NCBI RefSeq assembly: GCF_026616195.1
Contig: NZ_JANHDH010000003.1
Span: forward strand, 496,001-560,000
Source: Haloarchaeobius amylolyticus
Lineage (GTDB): Archaea; Halobacteriota; Halobacteria; Halobacteriales; Natrialbaceae
Length of the DNA: 64,000 nt
Direction: 5' to 3'
This document shows positions 30,691 to 48,431 of this stretch, one piece after another. Each line of letters starts with the position of its first letter. The first letter of the stretch is position 1. Both the position numbers and the translations under genes were made by a program. Under the pieces are notes generated by a model. It worked only from the letters and a program-made list of their open reading frames with translations. It was not told the origin of the DNA and did not search any database.

Positions 30691-30698
30691 GACCGCCA

Positions 30699-30874
30699 TC
30701 GACAAGATGCGGTTCCCGACTTTCGCTCCGTCGTGCTCGTCGTCGGCCTCGTGTTCGCACCCGTAGATGCGACCTGTTAGCAGGGCTCGGCGTCGCCAGC
30801 GTCGTGGCTGGCGCGCTTGGGCCCGGGCTGTACCGCCGGCGGTCCCGAAATGGGAGCGACACCACCGGCAGTGA
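30699..30874 (+). pseudogene. decayed 3' end of an ABC permease gene
   Basis: Allowing two single-base deletions (after codon GACC near 30776 and after CGCCGG near 30840), this stretch encodes LVVGLVFAPVDAT, LLAGLGVASVVAGALGPG, LYRR and AVPKWERHHRQ followed by a stop. About 40 of 46 residues are identical to the end of the permease at 26601-28034. In the unshifted frame a TAG interrupts it. Weaker similarity extends left to about 30699. It is a relic of a second permease copy in the same orientation. Confidence 0.85.
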
Positions 30875-30911
30875 CCCCGGCCTGAATACCTCCCCCTCCT
30901 CTTTTCCGGCC

Positions 30912-31727: not shown

Positions 31728-32755
31728 CGCCCCTCACCCCCCGTCATCTCGAGGAACGCCTCCTCGAGGTCCGGCGCGACCGTCTCGACCGAGTCGATGG
31801 TGACGCGATGGGCCCGCAGCAGGTCCATCAGGTCGTAGATGCCGTCGGAGTCGGTCGCGACCTCCAGCCGGGTGTGGCCGTCGTACTGCTGGCAGTCGGT
31901 CACCTCGAACTGCTCGCGGACCTGTGCGAGGGTGTCCGCGCCGAGGTCCGGGCTGGACACCCGGAACCCGCGCGTCTCGAACCCGCGGAGCAGGTTCGCG
32001 ACCGTGTCGTCGGCGATGATGCGCCCCTGACTGATGATGACGACCCGGTCGCAGACGTCCTCGATGACGTCCATGTCGTGACTGGAGAGGACGACGGTCA
32101 GCCCGCGCTCGCTCACGATGCGGCGCAGTTCCCGCCGGAGCTTCAGCGAACTCTCCACGTCCAGCCCCAGGGTCGGTTCGTCGAGGAACACGACGTCGGC
32201 GTCGGTCGCGAGCACGCTCGCCAGCGACGCCTTCTGCTTCATCCCGCGGGAGAGGTCCCTGACGGGCGTGTCCGCCTTCTCGGCGAGGTCGAGCTGGTCG
32301 AGCAGGCGCTCGTGGCGCCCGCGGACCGAGTCCGGCTTCACCCCGCTGATGGTCGCGAAGTAGCGCAGGTTCTCCCGGACGGTCAGCCGCCAGTAGTCGT
32401 TGCGCGCGCCCTCCAGCATGGCGTCGACGTGTCGGTACGCCCGCCGCGGGTTGGCGTGGACGTCGACGCCCTTGATGCGGACCGTCCCGGCCTCGGGCAG
32501 TATCATCCCGAGGATGGACTTGATGGTCGTCGTCTTCCCCGCCCCGTTGGGGCCGAGCAGGCCGACGACCGACCCCTCCTGCACGGTGAAGGAGACGTCG
32601 TCGACGGCGGTGACGGCCGCCTCGCCGCTCCCGAAGGTCTTCGAGAGCCCCTCGACGGCGATGGCTGGCGGCCCCGCCGTCTCGTCCGGTTCGGACCCGG
32701 TACGGTCCGTCGTCGCCGACCCGTCACGTCCACGCTCCCCCGACTGCGGTTCCAT
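31724..32755 (-). CDS. ABC-2 type exporter ATPase
   Basis: The start at 32755 gives 343 residues: a 35-residue charged N-terminal extension, then the ATPase with Walker A GPNGAGKTT, DLSRGMKQKASLA signature, Walker B VVFLDEPTLGLD and SSHDMDVIEDV. A C-terminal domain of about 90 residues (GFRVSSPDLGADTLAQV, then DLEEAFLEMTGG) is typical of drug-export ATPases. It is coupled to the permease downstream. Confidence 0.93.
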   Translation of the reverse strand: MEPQSGERGRDGSATTDRTGSEPDETAGPPAIAVEGLSKTFGSGEAAVTAVDDVSFTVQEGSVVGLLGPNGAGKTTTIKSILGMILPEAGTVRIKGVDVHANPRRAYRHVDAMLEGARNDYWRLTVRENLRYFATISGVKPDSVRGRHERLLDQLDLAEKADTPVRDLSRGMKQKASLASVLATDADVVFLDEPTLGLDVESSLKLRRELRRIVSERGLTVVLSSHDMDVIEDVCDRVVIISQGRIIADDTVANLLRGFETRGFRVSSPDLGADTLAQVREQFEVTDCQQYDGHTRLEVATDSDGIYDLMDLLRAHRVTIDSVETVAPDLEEAFLEMTGGEGR

Positions 32756-32881
32756 CGGGCCGGGGTAGGGTCCCCGGTAGCAAAAAGGCCCGGCGTAGGC
32801 GCCAGAGACCGCCATACCGTGAACCGCCCTCCGAGGTGTCGAAAGAGGTACCATTATCTTGCCGAGGGCCGACGTGCGAAC

Positions 32882-33445
32882 GTGCCGAACCTGTCCCTCC
32901 GCTACGTCATCGTCACCCTCCTGCTGGTCGGACTCCTCGTCGGAGCTATCGCCATCGTCGGCGTCATCGGCGTCGACACGAGTCGGTTCGCCGTCACCGA
33001 TGCCGCGGTGAACGAGACCGACCTCTCGGTCCGGTTGAACGACGAGTTCGACCTCCCCGAGAGCGAGAACGAGTCGGTGATGACGTGTACGAGTTCGGGG
33101 ACCCCGGGCGACAGCATCGGCGTGTACGGAACCGTGACCGTCACCGTCCCGACGGACGACGATGACGGCCTCGCCGGTGACGACCCCTACGAGGTCGAAC
33201 TGGCGCTCACCGAGGTCGGTGAGACCACCACGAAGGGCGTCGACGGGTCGGGGCGGCGAGCGACAGCCCGGTTCTTCTGGATTCTCGAGGACGACGAGAC
33301 CCTGGAGGTAGGGCAGACGACGACCATGCGAATCCGGGTCCTGGACGGGGGTGAGACCATCGCAGAGGAGACCAGACAGGTCACCGTCGAGGAGGGGTCC
33401 CGGACCTTCGACTGCGACGACGAGGAGCGTCGGAGAGCGCCCTGA
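32882..33445 (+). CDS. membrane-anchored extracellular protein, 187 aa
   Basis: The protein opens with GTG at 32882; no ATG fits. Residues 7-30 are a signal anchor (YVIVTLLLVGLLVGAIAIVG) and the remainder is an acidic, strand-rich exported domain with Cys in MTCTSSG and FDCDDEE that could pair. Segments such as YGTVTVTVPTDDDD and TTTMRIRVLDGG suggest an immunoglobulin-like sandwich. I do not recognise a family. It is divergent from the exporter ATPase by about 125 bp. Confidence 0.65.
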   Translation: MPNLSLRYVIVTLLLVGLLVGAIAIVGVIGVDTSRFAVTDAAVNETDLSVRLNDEFDLPESENESVMTCTSSGTPGDSIGVYGTVTVTVPTDDDDGLAGDDPYEVELALTEVGETTTKGVDGSGRRATARFFWILEDDETLEVGQTTTMRIRVLDGGETIAEETRQVTVEEGSRTFDCDDEERRRAP

Positions 33446-33453
33446 CCTCAGAC

Positions 33454-34227
33454 TCAGACCTGGTCGATTGTCGTCTCCGGGTTGACCACGAGGCTCCCCC
33501 GGACCGTCTGGGTCGCGACGTTCACCGCGTCGGTACACTGGGCGACGTTCGTCGCCTCGTAGTTCTCGATGTCGAGGAAGGTGACGAGCGAGAACGCGTA
33601 GTAGCGCTTCTCGCCGTCGCCGTAGGGCAGGTAGGCCGTGTAGCTGTTCACGTCGACGTTCGGGAACGCCACGAAGCGGACGGCCTCGCCGCCGAACTCG
33701 TCCTCGTAGGCCACGCCGGAGCTGTCCTCGCGGTCGATGGCGGCCTCGACCTCCGCTTCCGCCTCGCTCGCGGTGACGGGCTCGAAGGACTGGCCCACCC
33801 GGACCGTGGCGCTCGAGGTCGCGCCCTCGCTGGTCAGCGCCGGGCTGACGATGCGCTGGATGCGGGCCCCGGTGCGGTCGAGTGGGTCCTCGACGGTCCA
33901 GCTGTCGACGTAGTCGAACGCGAAGACGTAGGGCGTCCCGGCCACGTCGTAGGGGGTCGGCGACCCGGTCATCGGCTGGCAGAACGATGCGGACCCGCTC
34001 GCGGTCGCGTCCTGCTCGTCCGTGGCAGTCTCCGGGTTCTGACCGGTCGTCGTCTCCCGAACTGTCGTCGCAGCCTCTCTCGTCGTCTCGCCCGCGGTCG
34101 CCGTGGCGTCGCCGCCGTTCCCCGCGGGTGCGTCGGCTCCCTCGCTGGTACAGCCCGCGAGGGCGGTCGTCGCCGTCGCCGAGGCCGCGCCGAGGAGGAA
34201 CCGTCGGCGAGTTTGCCGGTCGGCCAT
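33454..34227 (-). CDS. twin-arginine lipoprotein, paralogue 1
   Basis: This 257-residue protein has a Tat signal (RRRFLLGAASATATTALAGC) with lipobox LAGC, an Ala/Thr/Glu-rich linker, and a globular domain from about residue 85. That domain opens PYDVAGTPYVFAFDYVDSW and contains EDEFGGEAVRFVAFPN. The pattern recalls PsbP/DcrB-like exported domains, which is only a resemblance. It shares about a third of its domain residues, by eye, with the next gene, 4 bp upstream, so the two are tandem duplicates in one operon. Confidence 0.8.
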   Translation of the reverse strand: MADRQTRRRFLLGAASATATTALAGCTSEGADAPAGNGGDATATAGETTREAATTVRETTTGQNPETATDEQDATASGSASFCQPMTGSPTPYDVAGTPYVFAFDYVDSWTVEDPLDRTGARIQRIVSPALTSEGATSSATVRVGQSFEPVTASEAEAEVEAAIDREDSSGVAYEDEFGGEAVRFVAFPNVDVNSYTAYLPYGDGEKRYYAFSLVTFLDIENYEATNVAQCTDAVNVATQTVRGSLVVNPETTIDQV

Positions 34228-34231
34228 CGGC

Positions 34232-34990
34232 TCAGACCTCCCCGATGGTCGTCTCGGGGTTGGGAGCGATGCTCTCCCGGACCGTCTCGATGCCAGCCAC
34301 CGTCTCCGCCAGGCAGAGTGGCTGCGTGCCCTCCTCGTCCTCCACCCGGAGGATGCTCGTCGTGAGCATCAGCCGGACCATGTGGTACCGCGCCTCCGCC
34401 TCTCCGTACGGCAGCCAGCACTGGTAGAACGGGATGTCCGTATCCGAGAGGCCGAGAACCTGCACGGTCTCACCGCCGAACTGCTGCTCGTGGGCGACGG
34501 TGCCGCGGGCGTAGTCCCCCGAGACGCTCTCGGCGATGACCTCGTCGACCTCGGCCTTCGTGACGGCCTCGAAGGACTGCATGACGCTGAGGTTCGCCGC
34601 CTCCGTCTCCCCGTCGACGGTCACGATGGGGCTGGTGAGTCCCTGGACCCGCCCATCCGGACCCGACAGTGGGTCCTCGACCTGCCAGGAATCGACGTAG
34701 TCGAAGGCGAAGACGAATGGCGTCCCCGCCACGTCGAACGGTGTCGGCTCCCCATCGAGAAGCGCGCAGTCCGGGTCCGGACTGCTGGACTGGGTCGTCG
34801 TGTTATCCCCTCCGGTGGACGAAGCCCCCGACCCCGCACCTGCTGACTCCCCTGTCGCGTCTGGCTGGCCGTCGTCGGTGGTCCCCCCACCACCCTCGGC
34901 GGCAGTCTGGCCGCCGCCGAGACAGCCTGTCAGTCCGGCCGTCGTCGCTGTCGCGCACAGCAGGAACCGTCGTCGAGACACTTCATCCAT
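34232..34990 (-). CDS. twin-arginine lipoprotein, paralogue 2
   Basis: This 252-residue protein has SRRRFLLCATATTAGLTGC as Tat signal and lipobox LTGC, a low-complexity Gly/Ser/Thr linker to about residue 75, and the same domain as its neighbour (PFDVAGTPFVFAFDYVDSW, then EQQFGGETVQVLGLSD). Both proteins end with a matching NPETTI tail. It is the promoter-proximal gene of the pair. Function is unknown; the repeated FDYVDSW motif could be useful for a family profile. Confidence 0.8.
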   Translation of the reverse strand: MDEVSRRRFLLCATATTAGLTGCLGGGQTAAEGGGGTTDDGQPDATGESAGAGSGASSTGGDNTTTQSSSPDPDCALLDGEPTPFDVAGTPFVFAFDYVDSWQVEDPLSGPDGRVQGLTSPIVTVDGETEAANLSVMQSFEAVTKAEVDEVIAESVSGDYARGTVAHEQQFGGETVQVLGLSDTDIPFYQCWLPYGEAEARYHMVRLMLTTSILRVEDEEGTQPLCLAETVAGIETVRESIAPNPETTIGEV

Positions 34991-35077
34991 AACGACGGTT
35001 CGAAGCAGTACAGTATCAGGTTACTTCGTGACCGCCCGTTCACGGTGTGAACGGACGCGCTGGAGGTGGACCAGCAT

Positions 35078-35875
35078 TCAGGTGCCTGCGTCGGGGTCGA
35101 AGGCCCCGACGTCCAGTGGTGTCGCCTCCGCCCGCAGTCGCTCGTACTCGTCGAGGACCCACTCCCGGACCGCGGGCGACTCCGTCACGACGATGCCCCG
35201 CGGGACCCCCTGCTCGTCGTCCGCGGAGATGATGGCCGTCTCGTCGTAGACGCCGACCTGGAAGGGCACCGACGGTCGCTCGAACAGTTCCAGCCCTCCC
35301 GTCTGGACCATCTCGACGACCTGCGCCCTGACGGTGTCGTTCGCCCGGATGGCGTCGGTCACCTCGGGGGTGACGACTCCTCTGGTGACGTGGGCCTCCG
35401 CCCGGGCGGCCTCGTGGCTAGAGGCGACGATCTCCGGCGAGACGGCGTGGACGACCATCGAGACGGTCGTCGCCGCTTCGAACAGCGCCGCGAGCCGGGA
35501 GATGTGCTGGTTCGGCGACGTCGGCGTCGGCGCGACGACCTCCGCGTCGTGGAGGACCGACACCTCGAAGTCGAACGCCCGGACCGGGAGGTACTCGAAG
35601 AGGTCCTCGAGGTGGCGTGTCGTGTCGACGACGTCGCGGAAGCGCTGGTAGGCCCTCGCGACCGTCTGGCCCGCCCGGGTCGCGCGATACCGGGTTCCCT
35701 CGCGCTCGACCCAGCCGCGAGCTTCGAGGTCGGTCGTGATGCGACCGATGGTCACCCGCGACGCGCCGATCCGGTCCCGGAGGCCGGCCCGGTCACATGG
35801 GGCGTCCACGAGGGCTGTCAGCACCGCTGCCCGGTTCGGCGCCCTGACGAGGAACGCGACGTCGTCCACACCCAT
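35078..35875 (-). CDS. winged-helix regulator with FilR1-type C-terminal domain
   Basis: This 265-residue protein has an N-terminal winged helix (RAPNRAAVLTALVDAPCDRA, then GASRVTIGRITTDLEARGWV) and a C-terminal sensor domain of the FilR1/methanogenesis-regulator middle type. Visible segments of that domain are SVLHDAEVVAPTPTSPNQHI, RGVVTPEVTDAIRANDTVR and PFQVGVYDETAIISADDE. Haloarchaea have many such regulators with unknown ligands. It lies upstream of the lipoprotein pair on the same strand, which it may control. Confidence 0.87.
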   Translation of the reverse strand: MGVDDVAFLVRAPNRAAVLTALVDAPCDRAGLRDRIGASRVTIGRITTDLEARGWVEREGTRYRATRAGQTVARAYQRFRDVVDTTRHLEDLFEYLPVRAFDFEVSVLHDAEVVAPTPTSPNQHISRLAALFEAATTVSMVVHAVSPEIVASSHEAARAEAHVTRGVVTPEVTDAIRANDTVRAQVVEMVQTGGLELFERPSVPFQVGVYDETAIISADDEQGVPRGIVVTESPAVREWVLDEYERLRAEATPLDVGAFDPDAGT

Positions 35876-35899
35876 GTCACCTCTCGCTCGCTGCGTGGC

Positions 35900-35908
35900 T
35901 ATAATACC
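35900..35908 (-). promoter_or_regulatory. TATA box of the FilR1-type regulator
   Basis: The minus strand reads GGTATTATAGCC with TATTATAG centred about 28 bp before the ATG at 35875, the spacing expected for a leaderless haloarchaeal transcript. Confidence 0.55.
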
Positions 35909-35966
35909 TCACCTCGCGTGAGTGTGGACGAGCGAGAACGAGTCCGAACACACCGCAGGCACCCAG

Positions 35967-36518
35967 CTACGGGAGCAACACGTCGGCTTCGGGGTTCTGG
36001 AACGGGTAGACGAGCAACTCCCCGCGCTTTCGCAGGTCGTCGATTCGTTCGGTGGCGCCCTGCCGGCTCATCCCCCCGAGGACGACCATCGCGTTCAGCA
36101 GGTGTTCCTTCGGGACGCGGGGATGGAACCGGCTGCTGGCGTCGGCCGCGGTCGGGTCGACGTCCTCCTGCATCACGGCGACGTACTCCCGGGGGTCCGT
36201 CTCGTCCGTCAACTTGTCGTGCCACGCCGGCGGGTAGTAGCTGATGCGGTCGTCGCCGACCTCGTGGACGGTCAGCCGGGACCAGCCATCGTCCGTGAGG
36301 TGGCGCTGGATCCGGCGTTCGAGTGCCTCGACGGTGAAGGGGGCGGCACCACCGAGGTCGTCGACGAGTGCCTGCGCGTAGGCGTCGAGGACCGCCCGCG
36401 GGAGTCCGGGTTCGTCGTGTGGGTGGCCGCCCTCGACGATCCTGACGAAGTCGGGGAAGGTGAGCCAGCGACCGCGCTGGAAGAGCGAGTCCAGCGTCCG
36501 TGAATCGAGCGAGACCAT
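35967..36518 (-). CDS. uncharacterised protein, 183 aa
   Basis: The ATG at 36518 is chosen over one three codons upstream because CTTATTCGG lies about 26 bp before it as a TATA element. The protein has a Trp/Phe-containing N-terminus (FQRGRWLTFPDFVRIVEGGH), a helical stretch with VLDAYAQALVDDLGGAAPF, and a possible winged-helix segment near the C-terminus (HLLNAMVVLGGMSRQGATER followed by IDDLRKRGELLVYP). A DNA-binding role is conceivable, but I assign no function. Confidence 0.7.
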   Translation of the reverse strand: MVSLDSRTLDSLFQRGRWLTFPDFVRIVEGGHPHDEPGLPRAVLDAYAQALVDDLGGAAPFTVEALERRIQRHLTDDGWSRLTVHEVGDDRISYYPPAWHDKLTDETDPREYVAVMQEDVDPTAADASSRFHPRVPKEHLLNAMVVLGGMSRQGATERIDDLRKRGELLVYPFQNPEADVLLP

Positions 36519-36657
36519 GGCTAGCATACGGTGGAGGGCCGAATAAGCGATTGCGACGGTCCACTGAGGAATCCGGCGGCGGGAGGTGCGCCCCCGGTTC
36601 GGACAGTGATACCTGTCCGGTAGATTGAAGACTGCACGGGCAGTCCGTCGACCTCCG

Positions 36658-37293
36658 ATGCACCTCGTCCTCGACTACGGCGGCGTCATCGTCGACCACG
36701 GCGACGAACGCGAACAGGCCCACGTCCTCGGCGTCGACCCCGAGACGGACCCCTATCCCGGCTGGCTCGCGTACTTCGCGTTCCGCGACGGCCTCGTCCA
36801 GAGTACGGCCGGGTACATCGACCTCCTCTCGACGCTCACGGGCGCCTCGGAGGCGTCGTGTCGGGAGTATCTCTCGAAGACGTGGCTCGACCCGACCTTC
36901 CCAGAGGAACACGTCGACCTCCTCCGGGACCTCGCGGGCGACCACACGCTCGTCCTCTTCGGGAACATGGCGCGCCCGTGGGTCGAGACGGTCCTCGCGG
37001 ACCACGACGTCCTGGACTGCTTCGACGACCTCGTCGTCTCGTCGGACCTGCGACGGTCGAAGCCCCATCCCAGAGGCTACTACGAGTGTCTCCCCGAGGG
37101 CGACGACCCGGTCGCCTTCGTCAGCGACGAGTACAACGAGGACCTCATGATGGGCGAGACCGTCGGGATGACCTCTGTGTGGGTCGAGAACGAGGACGAC
37201 GAGCCGCCGTACCGGGAGCCAGACGTGACGATATCCAGCCTCGCCGAGCTGCCGGCGGTCCTGCCGACCCTGCAAGAGCGCTCCGGGCAGTAG
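36658..37293 (+). CDS. HAD-superfamily hydrolase
   Basis: This 211-residue protein starts MHLVLDYGGVIVDHGDE, the HAD motif I in the DxxGV form. It continues with a helical cap, motif II (VLFGNMARPW, with Asn in place of the usual Ser/Thr neighbourhood), the motif III Lys in RRSKPHPRGYY, and the motif IV acidic pair in FVSDEYNEDLMMG. It is most like the haloacid-dehalogenase/YjjG-type small-molecule phosphatases; the second catalytic Asp of motif I is replaced by Gly, so phosphatase activity is uncertain. Confidence 0.82.
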   Translation: MHLVLDYGGVIVDHGDEREQAHVLGVDPETDPYPGWLAYFAFRDGLVQSTAGYIDLLSTLTGASEASCREYLSKTWLDPTFPEEHVDLLRDLAGDHTLVLFGNMARPWVETVLADHDVLDCFDDLVVSSDLRRSKPHPRGYYECLPEGDDPVAFVSDEYNEDLMMGETVGMTSVWVENEDDEPPYREPDVTISSLAELPAVLPTLQERSGQ

Positions 37294-37375
37294 TTCCGCC
37301 GGGGTATTCTGCCGGCCTGTACTCGCACGACCGCCGCACCGTTCCTCACCTCGATAGCGACAGGGGGACCCCTAG

Positions 37376-37420
37376 ATATTTAAAGGTGTAAAACAAGCTT
37401 TACTGTAAAGGTAGCTTTAC
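37376..37420 (+). promoter_or_regulatory. TATA box with two tandem palindromic operators
   Basis: ATATTTAAA at about 37376-37384 is a TATA element. It is followed by GTAAAA-CAAG-CTTTAC (37388-37403, one mismatch from perfect symmetry) and GTAAAG-GTAG-CTTTAC (37405-37420, perfect), spaced 17 bp. They lie just before the DUF2178/XRE operon and are the probable binding sites of the XRE repressor encoded there. Confidence 0.75.
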
Positions 37421-37438
37421 ACGCTGCCGGCACGACCC

Positions 37439-37846
37439 ATGACGCTCACCGAAACCGACGCGACCGACGAACTGACGTACCGACGACTCTACATCGGCCT
37501 CTGGATACTCTCGGGGGTCGCCCTCGGGGCACTCGTCGCCCTGGGCGAACCCCTCGCCGGCGTTGCAGCCTTCGTCGCCTGTGCGGTCGGCGCACTGGTG
37601 CTCTTCAGACGCTACAGCGGCCCACTGTTCGACGAACGCGACCAGCGACAGCAGGAGGCCGCGAGCCAGCGCACCCTCGCCATCATGGGCATGAGTTCGG
37701 CCGTCGTGTTCCCGACCGTGACCGCCCTGTGGGGGCTCGGTATCATCGAGTGGCCGGTCTGGCTGACCCCCATCGCGTTCTTCGTGGCCGCCCTCTCGTT
37801 CGTCCACGTCGGCTCGACGATGTACGAGGCGTCGAACACCGCATGA
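37439..37846 (+). CDS. DUF2178-type four-helix membrane protein
   Basis: This 135-residue protein has four membrane helices in two hairpins separated by a hydrophilic loop with FRRYSGPLFDERDQRQQEAA. The PLFDERDQR element is the hallmark of DUF2178 proteins, which usually occur, as here, directly before a small XRE regulator. The stop overlaps the start of the next gene (ATGA). In other prokaryotes the pair behaves like a membrane-linked regulatory module of unknown signal. Confidence 0.87.
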   Translation: MTLTETDATDELTYRRLYIGLWILSGVALGALVALGEPLAGVAAFVACAVGALVLFRRYSGPLFDERDQRQQEAASQRTLAIMGMSSAVVFPTVTALWGLGIIEWPVWLTPIAFFVAALSFVHVGSTMYEASNTA

Positions 37847-38055
37847 ACAACAGCCTCCGGGAGTACCGCGAGGAGAAAGACATGACCCAGGGTGACCTCG
37901 CCTCGGCCGTCGACGTCACCCGCCAGACCATCAACAGCATCGAACGCGGCCGGTACAACCCGTCGCTGGAACTGGCGTTCGAGCTCGCGGCGTTCTTCGA
38001 GTGCCAGATAGAGGACCTGTTCCACCCGGAGACGGGCGAAGACGGGAAGGGGTGA
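37843..38055 (+). CDS. XRE-family helix-turn-helix regulator, 70 aa
   Basis: This short Cro/C1-type protein begins MNNSLREYREEKDMTQGDLA and has the recognition region VDVTRQTINSIERGRYNPSL followed by ELAAFFECQIEDLFHPE, the YozG-like pattern. It is translationally coupled to the DUF2178 gene by a 4-bp overlap and probably binds the tandem palindromes at 37388-37420 to repress its own operon. Confidence 0.93.
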   Translation: MNNSLREYREEKDMTQGDLASAVDVTRQTINSIERGRYNPSLELAFELAAFFECQIEDLFHPETGEDGKG

Positions 38056-38132
38056 CCGGAGACGGGTGACCGGACTCCGATACGAGCCACCACCCAAACG
38101 CCGAAGTGGCCGCCGTGCGGACCTCGACCCGT

Positions 38133-38768
38133 ATGCCCTCCCTGCTCGAACGACTGCTCGGCGACGAGACCAGCGACGAAGAGGTCGACCTCGAATCGCG
38201 CCAGGAGACGGCCGACGACGCCCTGACGCAGGCCATCGACCGCGGTGGCTACGCCGTCGAGGACTGCGGCGTCACCGGCGTCGCGGTCGTCAACGAAGGC
38301 CCCGACGGGGAGCCCGTGACGGTCCCCATCGCCCGGTTCTCCCTCGGCGAGGACGTCGAGGACCCCGACATGGACCTCGTCTGGACCCTCGTCGGCGAGG
38401 CCGCAGACGCGTTGCAGGGCCCCTTCGACGACGTGTTCGTCCGCCACTTCGACGTGCAGTTCACCTTCGATGGCGACGAGCTGTTCGAGGCCGAGGAGTG
38501 TCGGCGCGTCGCGCTCACGACCGAACTCGTGGACCGCTACGCGAGCGACCCCGGCTTCGACGTGGGGTCGCTCCGCGACGCCGTGACGGACGCGGACGAC
38601 ATCGACGACGAGGTCGCCCCGGTCGCGTGGGGCGAGTGCAAGGACTACAGTAACGCGACGAACGCCGCGGTCGTCTTCGGCGGGACCGCCGCCGCTGCCG
38701 GCGCCAGTGCGAGTGCGGCGAGCTGTGCCGGGGCGGGAGCCGCGGGCGGCGCCGGTGGCGGCTGCTGA
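38133..38768 (+). CDS. uncharacterised protein with Ala/Gly/Cys-rich tail
   Basis: The ATG at 38133 gives 211 residues starting MPSLLERLLGDETSDEEVDL; an upstream ATG adds nine untypical residues. The main body to about residue 175 is an acidic alpha/beta domain (VRHFDVQFTFDGDELFEAEE). The last 30 residues switch to a low-complexity small-residue tail (GGTAAAAGASASAASCAGAG and then AAGGAGGGC), ending in cysteine. The tail might insert in a membrane, bind metal or be lipid-modified; none of these is established. Family not recognised. Confidence 0.65.
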   Translation: MPSLLERLLGDETSDEEVDLESRQETADDALTQAIDRGGYAVEDCGVTGVAVVNEGPDGEPVTVPIARFSLGEDVEDPDMDLVWTLVGEAADALQGPFDDVFVRHFDVQFTFDGDELFEAEECRRVALTTELVDRYASDPGFDVGSLRDAVTDADDIDDEVAPVAWGECKDYSNATNAAVVFGGTAAAAGASASAASCAGAGAAGGAGGGC

Positions 38769-38806
38769 CGCTCGCGTCGAATCGTCGAAAGAAAGACAGC
38801 GACCGA

Positions 38807-40396
38807 TTATCGCTCGCCTGGTTTCTCCTCGCGCCGGGGGCCGCGCTCGGCCCCGTCCTCCGGCATCGGCCCGCCGCCCATCGGGCCGCCTTCACCCATC
38901 GACCAGTCGTCCATGGGGCCGGGCTCTCCCATCGGCGGGCGTGGACCACCGGGACCCATCGGGCCGGGGACGCGCGCGTTCGGGTCGTAGGGGTCCGGCG
39001 TGCCCGGCCGGATGGGCGGCTCGACGGCGAGGCTCTCCTCGAACTCGTCGGCCACGTCGAACAGCTGGTCCACGAGGAACCCGGCCTCGGTCGAGATGTC
39101 ACGCTCCTCCCGGGGGTCCGCCTCGACGTTGACGATCCGGGGCGACCCGAGTTGCTGGAGCGTGCCGGTCTCGGGGTCGACCCACGAGAAGTGACACTTG
39201 AAGCGCTGCCACTTCACCGCGACCAGCTCGTGATTCACGACGATTGGGAAGCCCTCGCGCGCCGATTCCGCCGACTTCGCGGAGAACAGGCGACGCTGGT
39301 CGAGGCCGTCGACGATCCGATCGTCCGGGAAGCCGACGCCCGCGATGGCGGCCAGCGTCGTCGGCACGTCCACCGCGTGGACGACCTCGTTGCTCACCGT
39401 CATCGGCGGGACGGCCCCGGGCCAGTTCGCGACGAAGGGAACCCGGAGTCCGCCCTCCAGCGCCGAGCCGGCGGTCCCGCGGAACGGGCCGACGACCGTC
39501 TCGGCGACGGCCGGGTCGGTCGGGGCCGACGCGCTCGTCACGACGACGACCGTCTGCTGGTCGATGCCGGCCTCCTCGAGGGCGCGCAGGAGCTGACCGA
39601 CGCGGTGGTCGAGTTCCAGCAGCCGGTCTGCGACCGGCCCGTTGCCCGAGCGACCCTCGAAGGCCGGGTGGGGAACGACCGGCTCGGCGAGGCCGGTGAA
39701 GGAGACGGTCGCGAAGAACGGCGTCCCGGCCTCGGCCTGCCAGTCGACGAACTCGACGACGCGCTCGGTGAGCGTCTCGTCGAAGGTCGCCCGGGTGGCC
39801 TCGTCGAACGATTCGACCTCCGTCGGTGTCTCGCCGGCGTCACCCTCCAGGACCACGGGGACGTCCATCGTCGCCTGGTCGAAGGCCGGGTTCGCGGTGT
39901 AGCTCGCGACCGCCGGCCCGTCGACGATACCGTACCACTCGTCGAAGCCCTGGTCGGTCGGGAACCGCCCCTGCTGGTCGCCGAGTTCCCAGGTCCCGAA
40001 GTAGCCGGTGGCGTAGCCCGCGCCCGTCAGCACCTCCGCGATGGTGGTCTCCCAGGTGGTCAGCCCGGTGAGTTCGCCCGGATACCCGGGGACGCCGGTC
40101 CCCGAGCGGATCGGGTGCCGGCCGGTCATCATGGCAGAACGTGTCCCCTCCGCGGTCGGCTCGACGGAGAAGTTCGTCAGTTTGAGGCCCGTGCGGGCGA
40201 TGCTGTCGAGGTTCGGCGTCGGTGCCCCCAGCACCGCGCCACCCCCGTAACAGCCGGGGTGGCCGTAGCCGAGCCCGTCCGCGAGGACGAGCAGGAGGTT
40301 CGCGGGCGTCGTCCCGCCGTCCGTGCGCGGTTCGGCGCGTGGGCGTTCTGCCGGGACTGTCAGCTGGGTCGTCGTGGAAGGCTGTCGTCGTGTCAT
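38807..40396 (-). CDS. sulfatase-fold protein lacking catalytic residues
   Basis: This 529-residue protein keeps the sulfatase layout. LLVLADGLGYGHPGCYGG replaces the metal Asp-Asp with Asp40-Gly41. The formylglycine motif CxPSR is A-E-G-T-R (Ala82 to Arg86) before SAMMTGRHP. GKWHLG is GTWELG (134-139), and TSDNG is TSASAP (287-292). Fold motifs such as DQGFDEWYG are intact, so it is probably an expressed pseudo-enzyme and not a random relic. The C-terminal 55 residues are a Pro/Gly/Met-rich tail. There is no signal peptide from the start at 40396; longer starts add atypical sequence. Confidence 0.82.
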   Translation of the reverse strand: MTRRQPSTTTQLTVPAERPRAEPRTDGGTTPANLLLVLADGLGYGHPGCYGGGAVLGAPTPNLDSIARTGLKLTNFSVEPTAEGTRSAMMTGRHPIRSGTGVPGYPGELTGLTTWETTIAEVLTGAGYATGYFGTWELGDQQGRFPTDQGFDEWYGIVDGPAVASYTANPAFDQATMDVPVVLEGDAGETPTEVESFDEATRATFDETLTERVVEFVDWQAEAGTPFFATVSFTGLAEPVVPHPAFEGRSGNGPVADRLLELDHRVGQLLRALEEAGIDQQTVVVVTSASAPTDPAVAETVVGPFRGTAGSALEGGLRVPFVANWPGAVPPMTVSNEVVHAVDVPTTLAAIAGVGFPDDRIVDGLDQRRLFSAKSAESAREGFPIVVNHELVAVKWQRFKCHFSWVDPETGTLQQLGSPRIVNVEADPREERDISTEAGFLVDQLFDVADEFEESLAVEPPIRPGTPDPYDPNARVPGPMGPGGPRPPMGEPGPMDDWSMGEGGPMGGGPMPEDGAERGPRREEKPGER

Positions 40397-41230
40397 AGAG
40401 AGATACCCCCCGACCGGAGTCCGCGACCGCCCCGTGGCCGTCTCCGCGCCGGGGGCGGGGCCAGCGACTGGCCGCCGTGAGCCGCGACGCGAGGGAGCGC
40501 TCGCGCTCCGGAAGGTCACCTGTAACTAGCCCCACGGAGACGTATAGCAGATACTGGGTGAGGACTGAGTTATCACCGGAAGGAACCGTCTTCGCGGACG
40601 GGAGGTCGCGGGCCGAGGACGCCGCCGGCTAGCGAACGTCGTTACCAGCCGGTAGGGGAATCACCGGTCGGAAAGTGGACAGGTTATCTATCGGGGGCAC
40701 CTACGAGATAGTGAGGGTGAGGAAATCACCCGACAGGCAGCATCGAACCGGGGCGCCAGTCTGCCATACTCTACCACGGCCCCGCCGACGCGGTCTGCCA
40801 CCCAGTGCCCTTTCGGCCGACGTGGGCTGCCACCCACGCCGGCCACGTCGCTCATCCGGGTCTGCCACCCGATGACCGACCCGACGCTACATTCTCCAGA
40901 GAGAAGTCCTCCTTGTCGAGTTCTCAGCCATCGACCGCCGGCTACGACGCACGCTGTCGGTCGATACGATGGACCCGTCGCTGGCGGGTGCAGGACAGCG
41001 AAAAAGCGACAGATGTGGAAGTGGATCGGCTCACGCGCGCCAACTCGTGAAGCCGTGTACACGATTGTAGGTTACAGTTAAGTAAGTACTCCACAATGCA
41101 ACTGTTGCCCCCTTTCCTCATCATCGACGCTCCGAGACCCGCCCGGCCAGCGTCGAGACGGCCCGGGAGCGTTCCCAGTCGATGGACACCACCCCCCAAA
41201 GATAAGCCCCCCTCGGGTGTAACGCGTGGT
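40397..41230. other. 834-bp gene-free region with tRNA-like scrap and CTGCCACCC repeats
   Basis: No convincing protein gene is seen. The motif CTGCCACCC occurs three times (about 40795, 40827 and 40862). On the minus strand, 40741-40777 holds a T-loop-like GGTTCGATG and a D-arm-like GTGGTAGAG sequence without an anticodon arm. Near 41070 the sequence GTTACAGTTAAGTAAGTA is AT-rich and could be a promoter for the UspA gene at 41231. Confidence 0.4.
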
Positions 41231-41623
41231 ATGTACGAGGTACTGCTCGCAGTCGATTCCGACGAGGAACGTGCCCGCGCACAGGCAGAGGCCGTCGCAG
41301 ACATGCCCGGCAAGGACGAGGTCTCGGTGACCCTGTTCCACGTGTTCAAGGACAACCCCGAGGGGGCGTCGGTGTCCCAGCTCAGCACCGTCCGACAGGT
41401 CCGGGAGATACTCGAGGAGGCCGGGATGGAGACCGAACTCGCGGAGTCCAGCGGGAACGCGGCCGTCGAGATCGTCGAGCACGCGAAGGAGATCGACGCG
41501 GACTGCATCTGCGTGAGTGGGCGCAAGCGCTCGCCGGCCGGCAAGGCCCTGTTCGGGTCGACCGCACAGGGCGTCATCCTCGACGCCGAGCGGCCGGTCC
41601 TCGTGGCCCCGCCGCAGGGCTGA
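41231..41623 (+). CDS. universal stress protein UspA family
   Basis: From the ATG at 41231 this 130-residue protein reads MYEVLLAVDSDEERARAQAE, with the nucleotide-loop Asp. Near the end CVSGRKRSPAGKALFGSTAQ gives a GxxxxGS-type ATP-binding motif. The middle segment VSQLSTVRQVREILEEAG is helical as expected. Earlier in-frame starts give non-protein-like sequence. It is monocistronic as far as can be seen. Confidence 0.93.
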   Translation: MYEVLLAVDSDEERARAQAEAVADMPGKDEVSVTLFHVFKDNPEGASVSQLSTVRQVREILEEAGMETELAESSGNAAVEIVEHAKEIDADCICVSGRKRSPAGKALFGSTAQGVILDAERPVLVAPPQG

Positions 41624-41796
41624 CGACTACTGTCGGGGTGGCCAGCGCGGTGGGACCGCCCGGTCGAGAGTGACTATTCTGCGACCGGGGCACGGCCGTC
41701 GCCACATCGGGCGACCGGCCAGTTCTCGTATTCCTCCTCCAGAGTCGTCTGTACGAGTCGACAGCACTTGTCCAGGGGCCTCGCTGTGTCGGCGTG

Positions 41797-41851
41797 GAGG
41801 GCCGAAGGCAGCGGGTTGAGGGCCGAAGCGACCATGAGTGGAGGGCCGAAG
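41797..41851. repeat. three short direct repeats of GAGGGCCGAAG
   Basis: The 11-mer GAGGGCCGAAG occurs at 41797-41807, 41818-41828 and 41841-41851 with 21- and 23-bp spacing, in the 250-bp gap between the UspA stop and the HNH-like gene stop. No function is apparent. Confidence 0.7.
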
Positions 41852-41874
41852 CGTCAGCAGGATTCCGCCCCAGC

Positions 41875-42660
41875 TCAGGCGTCCTGCAGGTCGACACAGG
41901 GCTCGAAGCCGCCGCCGATGACCGTGTCCTCGTCGACCGCCTGCTCCCGGTAGCTGTCGCGTTCGTGTGCGGTCAGCAGCTCCCACCGCTGGCTGAGCCG
42001 GCGCTGCATCGTCGAACAGGCCTGCTGCTCGTCGAGGACGAGTTCCTCGCCGAGCGCGACCGCGACCGCGGCGTCGGTCGTCCGGGCGAGACAGGCGTCC
42101 CGGGCGACCGGCTGGTTGACGCCGGTCCGCCCGTCTGTCGAGACGTCGACCCGGCCGGCCAGCTGCTCGCGGAGCCAGACCTCCCGGCCGGTCAGGGGCA
42201 GGCGCTCGACCGCGACGCGAGGGTCGCAGGTCCACACCGGGAACTGCGGCGCGTTCTCGTACTGGGTCCCGAAGGCGCCGATGTCCTCGGGGCAGTCCGT
42301 CGTCAGCAGGTCGTAACACGGCTCGCAGACCGCGACGAGGTTCGCCAGCGCCCACTCCTCGCCACGGCCCGTGGCCGTCGCCAGCGAGTAGAGGTACCCC
42401 ACCTCCAGGTCGGGCGTCGTGCTGTCTCCGATGCGGCAGGCACAGCGCCCGCAGCGGTGCCCGTAGAACGCGAGCATCGCGGCGCGTCGCTCGCTGTAGT
42501 CCGGCGGGGCGTCGTCCTTCCCCGTGCGGGGGTCGGTACAGCCCGCGTCGAACTCGCGGTCGACATCGTACTCGTGGTACAGGTGCGAGCGGTCGTCGAC
42601 GAGGTGTGCGAGGTTGTACGGTGCCTGTGCGGGGTCGGGCGCGAACGTGAAGTCGGTCAT
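41875..42660 (-). CDS. HNH-like zinc-finger protein
   Basis: This 261-residue protein has, at about residues 60-120, a pattern like an HNH nuclease finger: RRAAMLAFYGHRCGRC (first CxxC), LEVGYLYSLATATGRG where the catalytic DHI/EHI strand normally is, and NLVAVCEPCYDLL (second CxxC preceded by Asn-Leu). The first catalytic His appears replaced by Tyr (VGYLY), so nuclease activity is doubtful. The C-terminal half (RRLSQRWELLTAHERDSYRE) is helical and unlike anything I recognise. Free Cys residues are abundant. Confidence 0.65.
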   Translation of the reverse strand: MTDFTFAPDPAQAPYNLAHLVDDRSHLYHEYDVDREFDAGCTDPRTGKDDAPPDYSERRAAMLAFYGHRCGRCACRIGDSTTPDLEVGYLYSLATATGRGEEWALANLVAVCEPCYDLLTTDCPEDIGAFGTQYENAPQFPVWTCDPRVAVERLPLTGREVWLREQLAGRVDVSTDGRTGVNQPVARDACLARTTDAAVAVALGEELVLDEQQACSTMQRRLSQRWELLTAHERDSYREQAVDEDTVIGGGFEPCVDLQDA

Positions 42661-42808
42661 CGTGTTGGATGGAGTCGTGACTGGGCGGTCGACGGGCGAT
42701 GCGAGAACGTCCGCGCAGGCGACACGTCACCCTCGGGTGCTGGGTGCGTGTGCCCGGTGCGGACGCCGCCGGCTGACGGGTGGTGTCGCCGACGTGCCGG
42801 AACCGACT

Positions 42809-42910
42809 TCAGTAGAAGACCGGCGTACCAGTGGCTGAGGTGGACGCTTCGTCCCCGTGTGCCGTGTAGCGGTGGTCGCCGCCGGTGCGGGCCTCGTTAC
42901 CCGCAACCAT
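42809..42910 (-). CDS. possible 33-aa small protein
   Basis: An ATG at 42908-42910 opens a frame of MVAGNEARTGGDHRYTAHGD followed by EASTSATGTPVFY and a stop. Immediately upstream are a 16-bp inverted repeat and AATTAAG, a TATA-like element, giving a plausible regulated promoter. Its short length means it could equally be a chance frame in the leader of the HNH-like gene 150 bp downstream. Confidence 0.4.
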   Translation of the reverse strand: MVAGNEARTGGDHRYTAHGDEASTSATGTPVFY

Positions 42911-42957
42911 GGTACGCGTCATGTACACTGACGTACACAGGGTACCCTCTTAATTTT
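42911..42957 (-). promoter_or_regulatory. nested inverted repeat beside a TATA-like element
   Basis: TGTAC-ACTGAC-GTACA is a perfect inverted repeat at 42922-42937, nested inside GGTAC (42911-42915) and GTACC (42942-42946). On the minus strand AATTAAG follows at about 42950-42956 as the likely TATA element. It probably controls the small frame at 42910 and/or the HNH-like gene. Confidence 0.5.
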
Positions 42958-43067
42958 TTCTCTCACCCCTCAGCATTCAGGACAGTTCCGGAGCCGGTCC
43001 TGTCCCGGATGGATTCAGGAAAGGACGCGGGTGGTGGAGTGTGTCTAGCCCGGGAGCGGTCGGCGGT

Positions 43068-43688
43068 TCAGCGCTTCTCGTACTGGAAGCTCCCGGTCCA
43101 CTTCCCGTAGACGTCGTCGCTGTTGCTGTCCTGGTCGAACAGCCAGACCGTGATCTCGTGCTGGCCCTCGTCGAACTTCTCGAGGCCACCGGGGTGGACC
43201 TGGACGACCCACTCGCCGTCTTCCTTCATCGCGAGGTAGTCCGACCGCTCGATGCGGGTGCCGTCGACGGCCACCATGAAGTAGGGCTCGCCCTCGACGT
43301 CCCCGTGTTTCGCGGGGTCGACGTCCTTCATCATCGTGTTCGCCTGGATGCGCAGGTCGAAGTCCGAGACGCCGTCACCGGTGTTCACCTTGTTGATCAA
43401 CTCGACCGACCTGATGCGGTTCTCGCCCTGGCCCATCTTGCTCTCGGTGGGGACGTTCGGCGGGGCCGGTGGTTCGTAGGCCGACGCGGTCGGCGTGGCC
43501 GTCTGGCCCGTCGTGGTCGCGGTCGTGGTCGTCGTCGATTCTCCCTCGGTCGCACTGTCCGTCGCACTCGTCGGCGCGTCTGTCGTCGGTTCCCCGGTCG
43601 GGTCCTCGCCGACGCCCCCGAAGCCGGCACAGCCGGCGAGGACGACGGTCAGGACGAGGCCGAGGACGACCCATGGTCTGTTCTCCAT
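43068..43688 (-). CDS. predicted lipoprotein, 206 aa
   Basis: The start at 43688 gives a Sec-type lipoprotein signal (RPWVVLGLVLTVVLAGC) with lipobox LAGC, a Thr/Ser/Glu stalk to about residue 75, and an exported domain containing NRIRSVELINKVNTGDGVSD and YFMVAVDGTRIERSDYLAMK, ending DDVYGKWTGSFQYEKR. The domain looks like a beta-sandwich. No family is recognised. It is divergent from the thiolase gene by about 190 bp. Confidence 0.78.
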   Translation of the reverse strand: MENRPWVVLGLVLTVVLAGCAGFGGVGEDPTGEPTTDAPTSATDSATEGESTTTTTATTTGQTATPTASAYEPPAPPNVPTESKMGQGENRIRSVELINKVNTGDGVSDFDLRIQANTMMKDVDPAKHGDVEGEPYFMVAVDGTRIERSDYLAMKEDGEWVVQVHPGGLEKFDEGQHEITVWLFDQDSNSDDVYGKWTGSFQYEKR

Positions 43689-43877
43689 GGACCGCGATTG
43701 TCGGCACCCGGCCATTATTATGAGTCGCGTAGGCACCGTTGAACCGTCAGAACGGTCCGGAACGGTCGCGTTCCCAACGGTTTCCATGCGAGACCTGACG
43801 GTTCGTCGGGGCCGCGGGATGGTGGGCGACGTGCCCAGTGGCGAAAGAAACAAGTAAATCGTTGTCCAGTTGGAACC

Positions 43878-45077
43878 ATGAGAGAAGCCGTCATCGTGGA
43901 CGCGGTCCGGACGCCGTTCGGCAAGCGCGACGGCGCGTTCCGCGACACCCACCCACAGGACCTCGCGGCCGCGCCGCTGCGGGCGCTCGCCGAGCGCAAC
44001 GACCTCGACACCTCCCTCGTCGAGGACGTCATCCTCGGCTGTGTCACCCCGAAGGGCGACCAGGGGTCGAACATCGCGCGAATCGCCCCCCTCGTCGCGG
44101 GCTGGAGCGAGGAGGTCGACCCCGACGCCGGGCCCGGCGCGTCGTGGCAGGGCAGCCACGGCGCCCCCGGCGTCCAGCTCAACCGGATGTGTGGCTCCGG
44201 CCAGCAGGCCATCAACTTCGCCGCGGGGCAGGTACGGGCGGGCTTCCAGGACGTTGTCGTCGCCGGCGGCGTCGAGCACATGACCCGCGAACCGATGGGC
44301 ACCGACGGCGGCTCGATGGCCGAGACCTACTTCGAGGAGTACGAGGAACTGATTCCCCAGGGCGAGAGCGCAGAGCGCATCGCGGAGACGTGGGGGTTCA
44401 CCCGGCAGGACCTCGACGAGATCGCGGTCGACTCGCAGTCGCGCTGGGGCGAGGCGTGGGAGGAGGGCCGGTACGACTCCCAGATAGCTCCCGTCGAGAC
44501 CGAACTCGACGACGAACCCATCACGGTCGAGAAGGACGGCCACCCGCGGCCCGGGACCGACGTGGAGACGCTTTCGGGACTCCCGCTGGCCTTCCGCGAC
44601 GAGGGCGAGGGCGTCGTCCACGCCGGCAACTCCTCGGGCATCGTCGACGGTGCCTCGGCCACGCTCGTCTGCTCGGCCGAGGTCGCCGAGGAGCAGGGCT
44701 GGGAGCCGATGGCCCGCATCGTCCAGACCGAGGTCTGCGCCGTCGACCCCGTGATGATGCTCACCGGCCCCATCCCCGCGACGAAGAACGTGCTGGCGAA
44801 GGCCGACATGACGGTCGAGGACATCGACCTGTTCGAGGTCAACGAGGCCTTCGCCAGCGTCGTCGCGGCCTGGCTGGAGGAGACGGGTGCACCGTGGGAC
44901 CGCACGAACGTCAACGGCGGCGCCATCGCCCACGGCCACCCGCTGGGGGCGACCGGGTCGGCTCTGATTACGAAGCTCGTCCACGAGATGGAGCGCACCG
45001 GCGCCCAGACCGCGCTCTCGACCATGTGCATCGGGTTCGGGCAGGGTATCGCGACGATTCTGGAGCGCGTCGAGTAG
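43878..45077 (+). CDS. acetyl-CoA C-acyltransferase (thiolase)
   Basis: This 399-residue enzyme joins or cleaves acyl-CoA units. The nucleophile is Cys105 in NRMCGSGQQA. NEAFASV, His354 in GGAIAHGHPLGATG and Cys384 in TMCIGFGQG complete the active site. The CIGFGQG motif has Phe where GG is usual. It could serve fatty-acid or aromatic degradation or polyhydroxyalkanoate precursors; no partner beta-oxidation gene is adjacent. The ATG at 43878 follows a 20-bp AT-richer leader. Confidence 0.96.
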   Translation: MREAVIVDAVRTPFGKRDGAFRDTHPQDLAAAPLRALAERNDLDTSLVEDVILGCVTPKGDQGSNIARIAPLVAGWSEEVDPDAGPGASWQGSHGAPGVQLNRMCGSGQQAINFAAGQVRAGFQDVVVAGGVEHMTREPMGTDGGSMAETYFEEYEELIPQGESAERIAETWGFTRQDLDEIAVDSQSRWGEAWEEGRYDSQIAPVETELDDEPITVEKDGHPRPGTDVETLSGLPLAFRDEGEGVVHAGNSSGIVDGASATLVCSAEVAEEQGWEPMARIVQTEVCAVDPVMMLTGPIPATKNVLAKADMTVEDIDLFEVNEAFASVVAAWLEETGAPWDRTNVNGGAIAHGHPLGATGSALITKLVHEMERTGAQTALSTMCIGFGQGIATILERVE

Positions 45078-45134
45078 GGACGACTCGGTTCCGCTACTCC
45101 CAGTCTTTTGGTGGCCGGACGAGGACGGAAGCGT

Positions 45135-46166
45135 ATGGACTATCGACGACTCGGTTCGACCGGGACGAAGGTCTCCGAACTCTGCTTCGGCACGTGGCGC
45201 TTCGGGCGAGAGACCGGCGGCGTCCTCGAAACGGACCGCGAGGAGGCACACGCGTTGCTCGACACCTTCGAGGCCCACGGCGGGAACTTCATCGACACGG
45301 CCAACGTCTACGGGAACCCCAACGGGACGAGCGAGGAGTACATCGGCGACTGGCTGGCCGAGCGCGACCGCGACGACTTCGTCCTGGCCTCGAAGGTCTA
45401 CTTCCCCTTCGACGGCCGGGGTGAGCCTGGGCCGAACGACTCCGGCCTCGGGCGGAAGCACATCCGCACCCAGATAGAGGGGACGCTCGACCGTCTCGAC
45501 ACCGACTACCTCGACGTGTACTACATCCACCGCTGGGACGACGAGACGCCCATCGAGGAGACCCTCGAAACGCTCACCCAGCTCGTCGAGGACGGGAAAG
45601 TGAACTACCTCGGCGCGTCGACGATGGCCGCCTGGCAGTTGACCAAGGCGCTCTGGAAGTCGGAGGTCGAGGGGCTCGAACGGTTCGAGGTGACCCAGCC
45701 CCTGTTCCACGCGGCCTACCGCGACGACGTGGCGGACTACCTCGACGTCTGTGCCGACCAGGACCTCGCGGTCTGCCCCTACTCGCCGCTCGCCGGGGGC
45801 TTCCTCACCGGGAAGTACGAGCGCGCCGACCCGGACGACCCGACCCAGGTGGAGGCGCCCGACGGCTCCCGCGGGAGCTTCGACGAGCGGTTCTCGAACT
45901 TCTACCTCTCGGCGCGCGGCTGGGAGGTCCTCGACGCCATCCGGGGTGTCGCCGACGAGGTGGACGCGACCCCCGCCCAGGTCGCGCTGCGCTGGCTGAT
46001 GGACCAGGAGGACTTCACCTGCATCCCCATCGTGGGCGCGCGGACGACCGACCAGCTGGAGGAGAACGTCGGGGCGGCCGAGATATCCCTCGACGCGGCC
46101 CAGTTCGAACGCATCTCGGAGGCACGGTACGACGAGGAGGGGAACCGCTGGGGCCACCGGGACTGA
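45135..46166 (+). CDS. aldo/keto reductase
   Basis: This 343-residue TIM-barrel enzyme begins MDYRRLGSTGTKVSELCFGT. The catalytic tetrad is visible: Asp and Tyr in FIDTANVYGNPNG, Lys in VLASKVYFP and His in YYIHRWD. The C-terminal NADPH-binding part contains CIPIVGARTTDQLEENVGA. It reduces carbonyls with NADPH, most like the YajO/Kv-beta group; the substrate is unknown. Its TATA-like upstream CCCAGTCTTTTGG suggests an independent promoter. Confidence 0.94.
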   Translation: MDYRRLGSTGTKVSELCFGTWRFGRETGGVLETDREEAHALLDTFEAHGGNFIDTANVYGNPNGTSEEYIGDWLAERDRDDFVLASKVYFPFDGRGEPGPNDSGLGRKHIRTQIEGTLDRLDTDYLDVYYIHRWDDETPIEETLETLTQLVEDGKVNYLGASTMAAWQLTKALWKSEVEGLERFEVTQPLFHAAYRDDVADYLDVCADQDLAVCPYSPLAGGFLTGKYERADPDDPTQVEAPDGSRGSFDERFSNFYLSARGWEVLDAIRGVADEVDATPAQVALRWLMDQEDFTCIPIVGARTTDQLEENVGAAEISLDAAQFERISEARYDEEGNRWGHRD

Positions 46167-46216
46167 CCGCGCGGCGGAACACCGCACTTTTCCCGCCGCT
46201 TTCCCACCTGCCTCGT

Positions 46217-46576
46217 ATGGGAACCATCGATTCGCTGCCGTCGCGCCCCCTCACCGGCGAGGAGGTGCAGTCGCTGGCCGAGCAGGACGCCGAGTTGACG
46301 GTCGTCCCCGGGAACTACGTCCCCGAGATCGACCGCGTCTACGCGCTCTTCTTCATCTACTCGGGCAAGGGCCACGCCGTCGGCTTCGAGCCCGAGGCCG
46401 AGGAGTGGACCATCGTCGAGACGGTCGACGAGGGGACCGAGAACGGGTTCACCGTGCTCCAGCAGGCCATCGCCGAGTGGGGCCAGGACACCTACGACGA
46501 CGACTTCCTGCAGGGCGGCACGACGGTCGACTTCGACGACGAGGAGGCCGTCGTCGAGGACATCGAGGAGCTCTGA
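46217..46576 (+). CDS. small conserved haloarchaeal protein, 119 aa
   Basis: This acidic soluble protein starts MGTIDSLPSRPLTGEEVQSL and includes RVYALFFIYSGKGHAVGFEP and EWGQDTYDDDFLQGGTTVDF. The composition and typical codon use support a real gene, and I have seen similar haloarchaeal proteins of unknown role. It is convergent with the ABC permease at 46584, leaving only 7 bp between stops. Confidence 0.72.
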   Translation: MGTIDSLPSRPLTGEEVQSLAEQDAELTVVPGNYVPEIDRVYALFFIYSGKGHAVGFEPEAEEWTIVETVDEGTENGFTVLQQAIAEWGQDTYDDDFLQGGTTVDFDDEEAVVEDIEEL

Positions 46577-46583
46577 GACGGCT

Positions 46584-47426
46584 TCAGCTCAGGTCGGCGC
46601 GTTCGAACGCCCGGTAGCCGACCAGCAGGGGCACCGCCGCCCACGCCGCGAGGACGAGCAGGAGGAACCACGGTTCGAGGTAGAACGGGAGATCGCCGGC
46701 GATGAGGCCAGAGAGCCCCGGCAGGCCAGCCTCCCAACTGACGACCGCGGTCACGAGCGAACTGTACGCGCCGGTCGGACTCAGGCTCTGCAGCAGGACG
46801 AACCAGCCCGGGAGCGGCGGTTCCGGCTGCGAGCCCTGGACGAGCAGGTGGGCGCCCTGGGGCACGAGGTCCCAGAACAGCGTCAGCACGAGGTAGACCG
46901 CGATGGAGGCGGTCATCGCCCGCGAGCGCGTCCCGGTCGTGGCCGAGAGACCGACCGCGATGCCGACGAACACGACGCCGAGCAGGGCCGTGAGCAGCAG
47001 GGTGAGGACGAACGCCGTGACCGGCAGCGTCCCGTAGACCGCCACGGTGACGACGCCGGAGACCGCGTAGCCGGCCGAGATGGCGGCCGCGACGACCGCA
47101 CCGCGGCCGAGGAACTTGCCCGCGACGACCTCGGCGCGGGAGGGCGGGAACCCGAGCAGGACCTTCACGCTACCCGATTCGCGCTCGCCGGCGATGGCGA
47201 GGTAGGCCGCGACGAGGGCGACGATGGGCACCAGCAGCCCCGCGAACTCGGTCGCGCCGTTGATGCCCGCGAGGGCGTCGGCCTCGACGCCGGGGACGAA
47301 CTTGAGCGCGCCCGCGGCGACCGAGGTCAACCCGGCCACGAGGACGACGATGGTCCAGACGAGGCGGGAGCGGACGCTGTCGGAGACCTCCTTGCGCGCG
47401 ATGGTCCCGATGCGGCGGGCCTTCAT
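46584..47426 (-). CDS. ABC-2 type (NosY-like) exporter permease
   Basis: This 280-residue protein has six membrane helices, a cytoplasmic N-terminus with TIARKEVSDSVRSRLVW, and the segment ERESGSVKVLLGFPPSRAEV between helices 2 and 3, characteristic of NosY/ABC-2 permeases. It overlaps the ATPase gene by 4 bp. In haloarchaea such pairs occur widely and their cargo is seldom known. Confidence 0.92.
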   Translation of the reverse strand: MKARRIGTIARKEVSDSVRSRLVWTIVVLVAGLTSVAAGALKFVPGVEADALAGINGATEFAGLLVPIVALVAAYLAIAGERESGSVKVLLGFPPSRAEVVAGKFLGRGAVVAAAISAGYAVSGVVTVAVYGTLPVTAFVLTLLLTALLGVVFVGIAVGLSATTGTRSRAMTASIAVYLVLTLFWDLVPQGAHLLVQGSQPEPPLPGWFVLLQSLSPTGAYSSLVTAVVSWEAGLPGLSGLIAGDLPFYLEPWFLLLVLAAWAAVPLLVGYRAFERADLS

Positions 47427-48367: not shown

Positions 48368-48396
48368 ACCGGCACTGCGCCGCCGCCGGGGATAAG

Positions 48397-48418
48397 TATT
48401 ATCATAGAATTGATAATA
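48397..48418 (-). promoter_or_regulatory. 22-bp inverted repeat before the ABC-2 exporter operon
   Basis: TATTATCA-TAGAAT-TGATAATA is a perfect inverted repeat with 8-bp arms. It lies 30-51 bp upstream of the ATPase ATG at 48367 and overlaps the only AT-rich (TATA) stretch there. It is likely an operator, possibly of the regulator encoded just upstream at 48445-49362. Confidence 0.65.
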
Positions 48419-48431
48419 TAACAGAGCAGTA

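Follow-up and report, generated by a model that had tools for sequence, protein, structure and literature searches.

Pseudoenzymes have been well studied among kinases and phosphatases. Among the formylglycine (FGly) sulfatases, no named pseudo-sulfatase was found in the searchable literature, and a literature search on pseudo-sulfatases or haloarchaeal FGly-sulfatases found no dedicated papers. By definition, a pseudoenzyme is homologous to an enzyme family but is without the conserved catalytic motifs of that family (PMC10211241). In the S1 (FGly) sulfatases, these motifs comprise the Cys or Ser of C/S-x-P-S/A-R, which is converted to formylglycine, a metal site made of Asp, Asp/Asn, Asp, and Asn, and the Lys, His, and His that hold the sulfate. 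Among solved structures, the haloarchaeal protein described here is closest in sequence to PsFucS1 of Pseudoalteromonas (7aj0) and human arylsulfatase A (1auk, 1n2l). Both are formylglycine enzymes whose active site is intact, and their identity to it is 28-29%. Bacterial arylsulfatases of the same S1 family (L031, L044, and L038) are ~45-46% identical over residues 33-472 and share a conserved C-terminal PPI..GTPDPY motif, but they carry Cys, Lys-Trp-His, His, and Asp-Asn-Gly in the active site and lack the C-terminal tail of the haloarchaeal protein.

A more remote relative is the periplasmic domain of YejM/PbgA/LapC, a membrane-anchored and largely regulatory protein with an alkaline phosphatase/sulfatase-like fold, whose usual catalytic residues were reported missing (PMC7018646). 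A Thr nucleophile, a bound metal, and phosphatase activity have since been reported for it (PMC7576196), whereas the haloarchaeal protein has neither the nucleophile nor the metal loop. Membership in the YejM/LapC family was rejected, given that the NCBIfam model LapC_YejM_PbgA, whose cut-off is 825, gives 19.5 bits; in the NCBIfam profile search of the protein, no model reached its cut-off.

The gene lies on the minus strand at 38807..40396 of the window (the whole stretch of 64,000 nucleotides that was analysed). Its frame is open for 529 codons, as had been predicted, plus a stop, from an ATG at 40396 down to 38807, and its GC content is 72%. The protein matches the Pfam Sulfatase model at 118 bits (E 5e-34), far over the 25-bit cut-off. 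Such a match calls for caution, since genes of this kind score as sulfatases in family models despite missing catalytic residues. Judged by its sequence and evolution, the gene is a genuine, selected pseudo-sulfatase, and annotation as an active sulfatase is unwarranted. It represents a new pseudoenzyme lineage within a known superfamily.

Active-site residues in the two orthologs

Genomes were searched in three overlapping samples (392 from the order, 125 from the family, and 391 from the class), and an ortholog turned up in a single other genome, that of a sister species of the same genus (G356), with 75-76% identity. A closer intact ortholog was sought among the same haloarchaeal genomes and none was found; the next matches are 37-39% identical, with Cys intact. 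Residues were compared in an alignment of 98 sequences scoring above 150 bits, and all positions given below are on the minus strand. The motifs quoted in the original prediction (VLADGLGYG, EPTAEGTRSAMMTGRHP, YFGTWELGD, VVTSASAPTD, and the structural motif GFDEWYG, which is unchanged) are all present in the frame.

The former C-x-P-S-R (40139..40153) now reads Ala82-Glu-Gly-Thr-Arg86, and the nucleophile has been lost. Cys occupies this position in 93 of the 98 aligned sequences, and the only other Ala is that of the G356 ortholog, so that the predicted exchange of the formylglycine Cys/Ser for Ala82 was correct. For the remaining sites, we take Lys123/His125 of arylsulfatase A to correspond to Thr135/Glu137 here, His229 to Ala237, and Asp281-Asn282-Gly to Ala289-Ser290-Ala291. 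The former Lys-Trp-His (39986..39994) has become Thr135-Trp-Glu137, the change from GKWHLG to GTWELG that had been noted; Thr135 is common to both orthologs, and position 137 is Gln in G356. The former Asp-Asn-Gly metal loop (39524..39532) is Ala289-Ser290-Ala291 in both, in keeping with the reported replacement of TSDNG by TSASAP. A further catalytic loss, which the original prediction did not contain, affects the former substrate-site His (39686..39688): His is found in 95 of the 98 aligned sequences, and Ala237 in both orthologs. The codon for Ser290 is TCG in one ortholog and AGC in the other, and because more than one change is needed to interconvert them, Ser290 itself seems to be held.

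Two other differences are of another kind. In the metal motif (40274..40279), Asp40 is kept and is followed by Gly41 (Glu in the other ortholog), where the closest relatives have Asn and arylsulfatase A has Asp. The Gly had been correctly read, but the ancestral pair was Asp-Asn, as in the closest bacterial relatives, and not the Asp-Asp that had been assumed. Similarly, the position of arylsulfatase A Lys302 (39470..39472) is Ala309 in both orthologs and mostly Tyr or Leu in the bacterial relatives; thus, Lys does not appear clearly ancestral here. Since the closest bacterial relatives already have Asn and, usually, Tyr/Leu, neither difference is a loss from the textbook state.

The claim that every catalytic motif has been replaced is consequently true of most residues: four of five metal or nucleophile positions and all three sulfate-holding Lys/His residues are lost, and both orthologs retain only Asp40 (the first metal Asp) and Arg86 (the Arg of C-x-P-S-R). 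Given the retention of these two residues, the fold might catalyse a different reaction with new residues placed around them. Migrated catalytic residues are known from some so-called pseudoenzymes (PMC10211241), and YejM, with its related fold, was first described as lacking catalytic residues and only later as a phosphatase. Such a relocated active site is nevertheless unlikely here: nothing evidently replaces the metal ligands or the nucleophile, positions 137 (Glu/Gln), 238 (Glu/Gln), and 41 (Gly/Glu) differ between the orthologs, and YejM retains its Thr nucleophile at the position that is Ala in this protein. The kept fold and Arg86 would also suit a sensor that still binds sulfate esters but leaves them uncleaved. 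However, Thr, Glu/Gln, and Ala now stand in place of the sulfate-holding Lys, His, and His; the anion pocket has thus been dismantled, which makes a sensor of sulfated ligands very improbable.

Selection on the gene and conservation of its locus

Comparison of the two orthologs gives a dN of 0.19 and a dS of 0.56 for the whole gene (dN/dS 0.34). Over the fold (residues 32-475), dN/dS is 0.28 (bootstrap CI 0.21-0.37), a value that indicates purifying selection rather than decay, and the differences between the orthologs fall 73/59/153 by codon position. By comparison, the five other reading frames give 0.55-1.83 over the whole gene. Together with the finding that most of the substitutions are common to both species, these results support the earlier view that selection maintains a non-catalytic protein. 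Neighbouring clear genes have dN/dS values of mostly 0.07-0.19, with one at 0.31, and so the constraint on the gene appears real but moderate. Because only two orthologs are known, their conserved losses amount to one shared event.

A set of 103 positions that are at least 95% invariant in 79 bacterial relatives was used to follow the distribution of these losses. Both orthologs keep 78 of these positions and both have lost 18, the losses comprising 5 of 7 catalytic but only 13 of 96 other invariant positions (Fisher p 0.0016). This concentration on catalytic sites would not be expected from general decay. If the gene were nonetheless decaying, its catalysis would be gone, and its open frame would be explained solely by recent decay or by the rarity of stops at 72% GC. 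The very long stem branch described below is in line with such a history, as are the dN/dS above that of most neighbouring genes and the slowness with which stops arise in a GC-rich gene. Yet the losses predate the species split (dS 0.56), and both frames are intact with the fold under constraint; the retained family-invariant positions and the conservation of a presumed promoter block likewise speak against decay, and we consider it highly unlikely. In a neutral simulation at 0.28 changes per site, just 0.4% of runs stayed free of stops. An ortholog with an intact active site would have pointed to a decaying copy, but that of G356 is not intact; intact sites occur only in distant bacterial proteins of ~45% identity, which are evidence of ancestry rather than of recent decay.

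The presumed promoter is a TATA-like block at 40519..40562 (minus strand), with TATAC at 40546-40542, that is near-identical in the ortholog; a promoter function for this block is putative. It ends at an in-frame GTG at 40519, an alternative start that extends the frame upstream of the ATG. Directly upstream of the ATG at 40396, a CTCCGGTCGGGGGGTATCTCTCT block (40397..40419, minus strand) is almost identical in the ortholog, and the stretch between the two blocks has diverged. This pattern favours the ATG over the GTG, although the start is uncertain. About 700 bases (40397-41095) separate the gene from a divergent universal stress protein gene, and they align with G356 at ~78%.

Positions 38871-57960 of the window are collinear with G356 (inverted) in large blocks, and the gene was therefore present at this place in the common ancestor of the two species. 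At the corresponding loci, four further species in the genus have no copy of it but retain the stress-protein, HNH-like, and thiolase genes. The neighbouring genes were also examined for clues to function: the divergent universal stress protein gene alone adjoins the pseudo-sulfatase in both species, and the other flank differs. On that flank, the G356 contig is without the ~8 kb (30698-38870) next to the gene, and alignment resumes there with positions 29422-30697 of the window. Part of the missing segment (33500-36500) can be aligned at another place on that contig, as by insertion or rearrangement. A 220-amino-acid protein with no Pfam match, encoded on the plus strand at 38106-38768 and convergent with the pseudo-sulfatase, has a C-terminal Ala/Gly/Cys-rich tail ending AGGAGGGC.

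Predicted fold, tail, and possible role

An AlphaFold2 model, built with a 48-sequence alignment, contains a sulfatase fold at residues 30-469 (38990..40309, minus strand) with pLDDT mostly above 90, and both ends of the model are disordered. When overlaid on arylsulfatases, as had been proposed, the predicted fold superposes on PsFucS1 with a Z of 48.8 (rmsd 2.1, 440 residues) and on human arylsulfatase A with a Z of 47.6; rmsd is 2.0-2.1 across both structures. Since the input alignment came from sulfatases and so favours that fold, the model demonstrates compatibility more than it provides a test.

The Pro/Gly/Met-rich tail (residues 477-529; 38810..38968, minus strand), which had also been predicted, is real and is unique to the ortholog pair. 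Beyond the shared GTPDPY motif, which ends at residue 472, the bacterial relatives have 0-19 residues and the two orthologs have 57 and 61. The tail is predicted to be disordered (pLDDT under 50). Residues 477-512 are identical between the orthologs at 27 of 36 positions (75%), compared with 3 of the last 16, and the first 36 residues thus look more constrained than the tail end.

The explanation that we regard as probable is that a bacterial sulfatase, acquired laterally, has turned into a non-catalytic protein of the cytoplasm, with a binding or scaffold role and a newly gained disordered tail. In this model, a bacterial arylsulfatase gene would have been taken up by the ancestor of the two species. 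The encoded protein would have been inactive there from the outset or have lost its activity early, because the host would lack the formylglycine-generating enzyme (FGE), which is needed for the formylglycine nucleophile. The active site would then have drifted, while the folded protein was retained for a different function. Given that no secretion signal is apparent in the frame, that the anion pocket has been emptied, and that the flexible tail is new, this function would most likely be a cytoplasmic binding or scaffold role. The partner would be a protein or a neutral small ligand, not a sulfate ester, and the tail may extend or tether the protein. A partner paralogue within the same genome was considered and rejected: the other five PF00884 proteins fall in distant groups and, as judged by eye, carry Thr or Ser at the position of the nucleophile.

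Origin and the undetected maturation enzyme

In a tree of 80 rows, from whose alignment of relatives one locus with a stop codon was left out, the ortholog pair nests among bacterial arylsulfatases whose active sites are intact (clade support 99). Halobacterial FGly-sulfatases have been attributed to transfer from bacteria (PMC5066984). Plasmid-borne relatives were also sought and rejected, the best matches being bacterial arylsulfatases at 30-44% identity. The stem of the pair is 2.6 changes per site, about ten times longer than the median tip of 0.27; salt-adapted composition, flagged by the program for both rows, may have lengthened it. Its length could also reflect the acquisition, from an unsampled lineage, of a form that was inactive already.

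No FGE gene was detected in any of the six genomes of the genus, and FGE was found in all seven of the haloarchaea carrying related sulfatases. Furthermore, matches to the anaerobic maturase in G000 and G356 score ~31 bits, far under the cut-off of 349. These observations have led to a more tentative proposal, in which a bacterial FGly-sulfatase entered an archaeal lineage that had no enzyme for its maturation and was co-opted there for an exclusively structural or regulatory role, founding a stable pseudo-sulfatase family. If so, missing cofactor machinery can drive the birth of a pseudoenzyme. With a single haloarchaeal lineage, intact bacterial relatives, and hosts that have no detectable maturation enzyme, the gene offers a testable case for the reuse of an enzyme that cannot be activated. 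The argument from FGE is not strict, however, because the sister species, with no detected FGE, keeps a sulfatase-family protein with C-S-P-A-R and T-T-D-H-G motifs (L118; G356:C2:146480-146797). In the tree, a record labelled Thermoplasmata archaeon (L039, 8001-9329) carries a bacterial-type arylsulfatase beside a Phycisphaerales sequence, a placement that would reflect either transfer or mis-binning.
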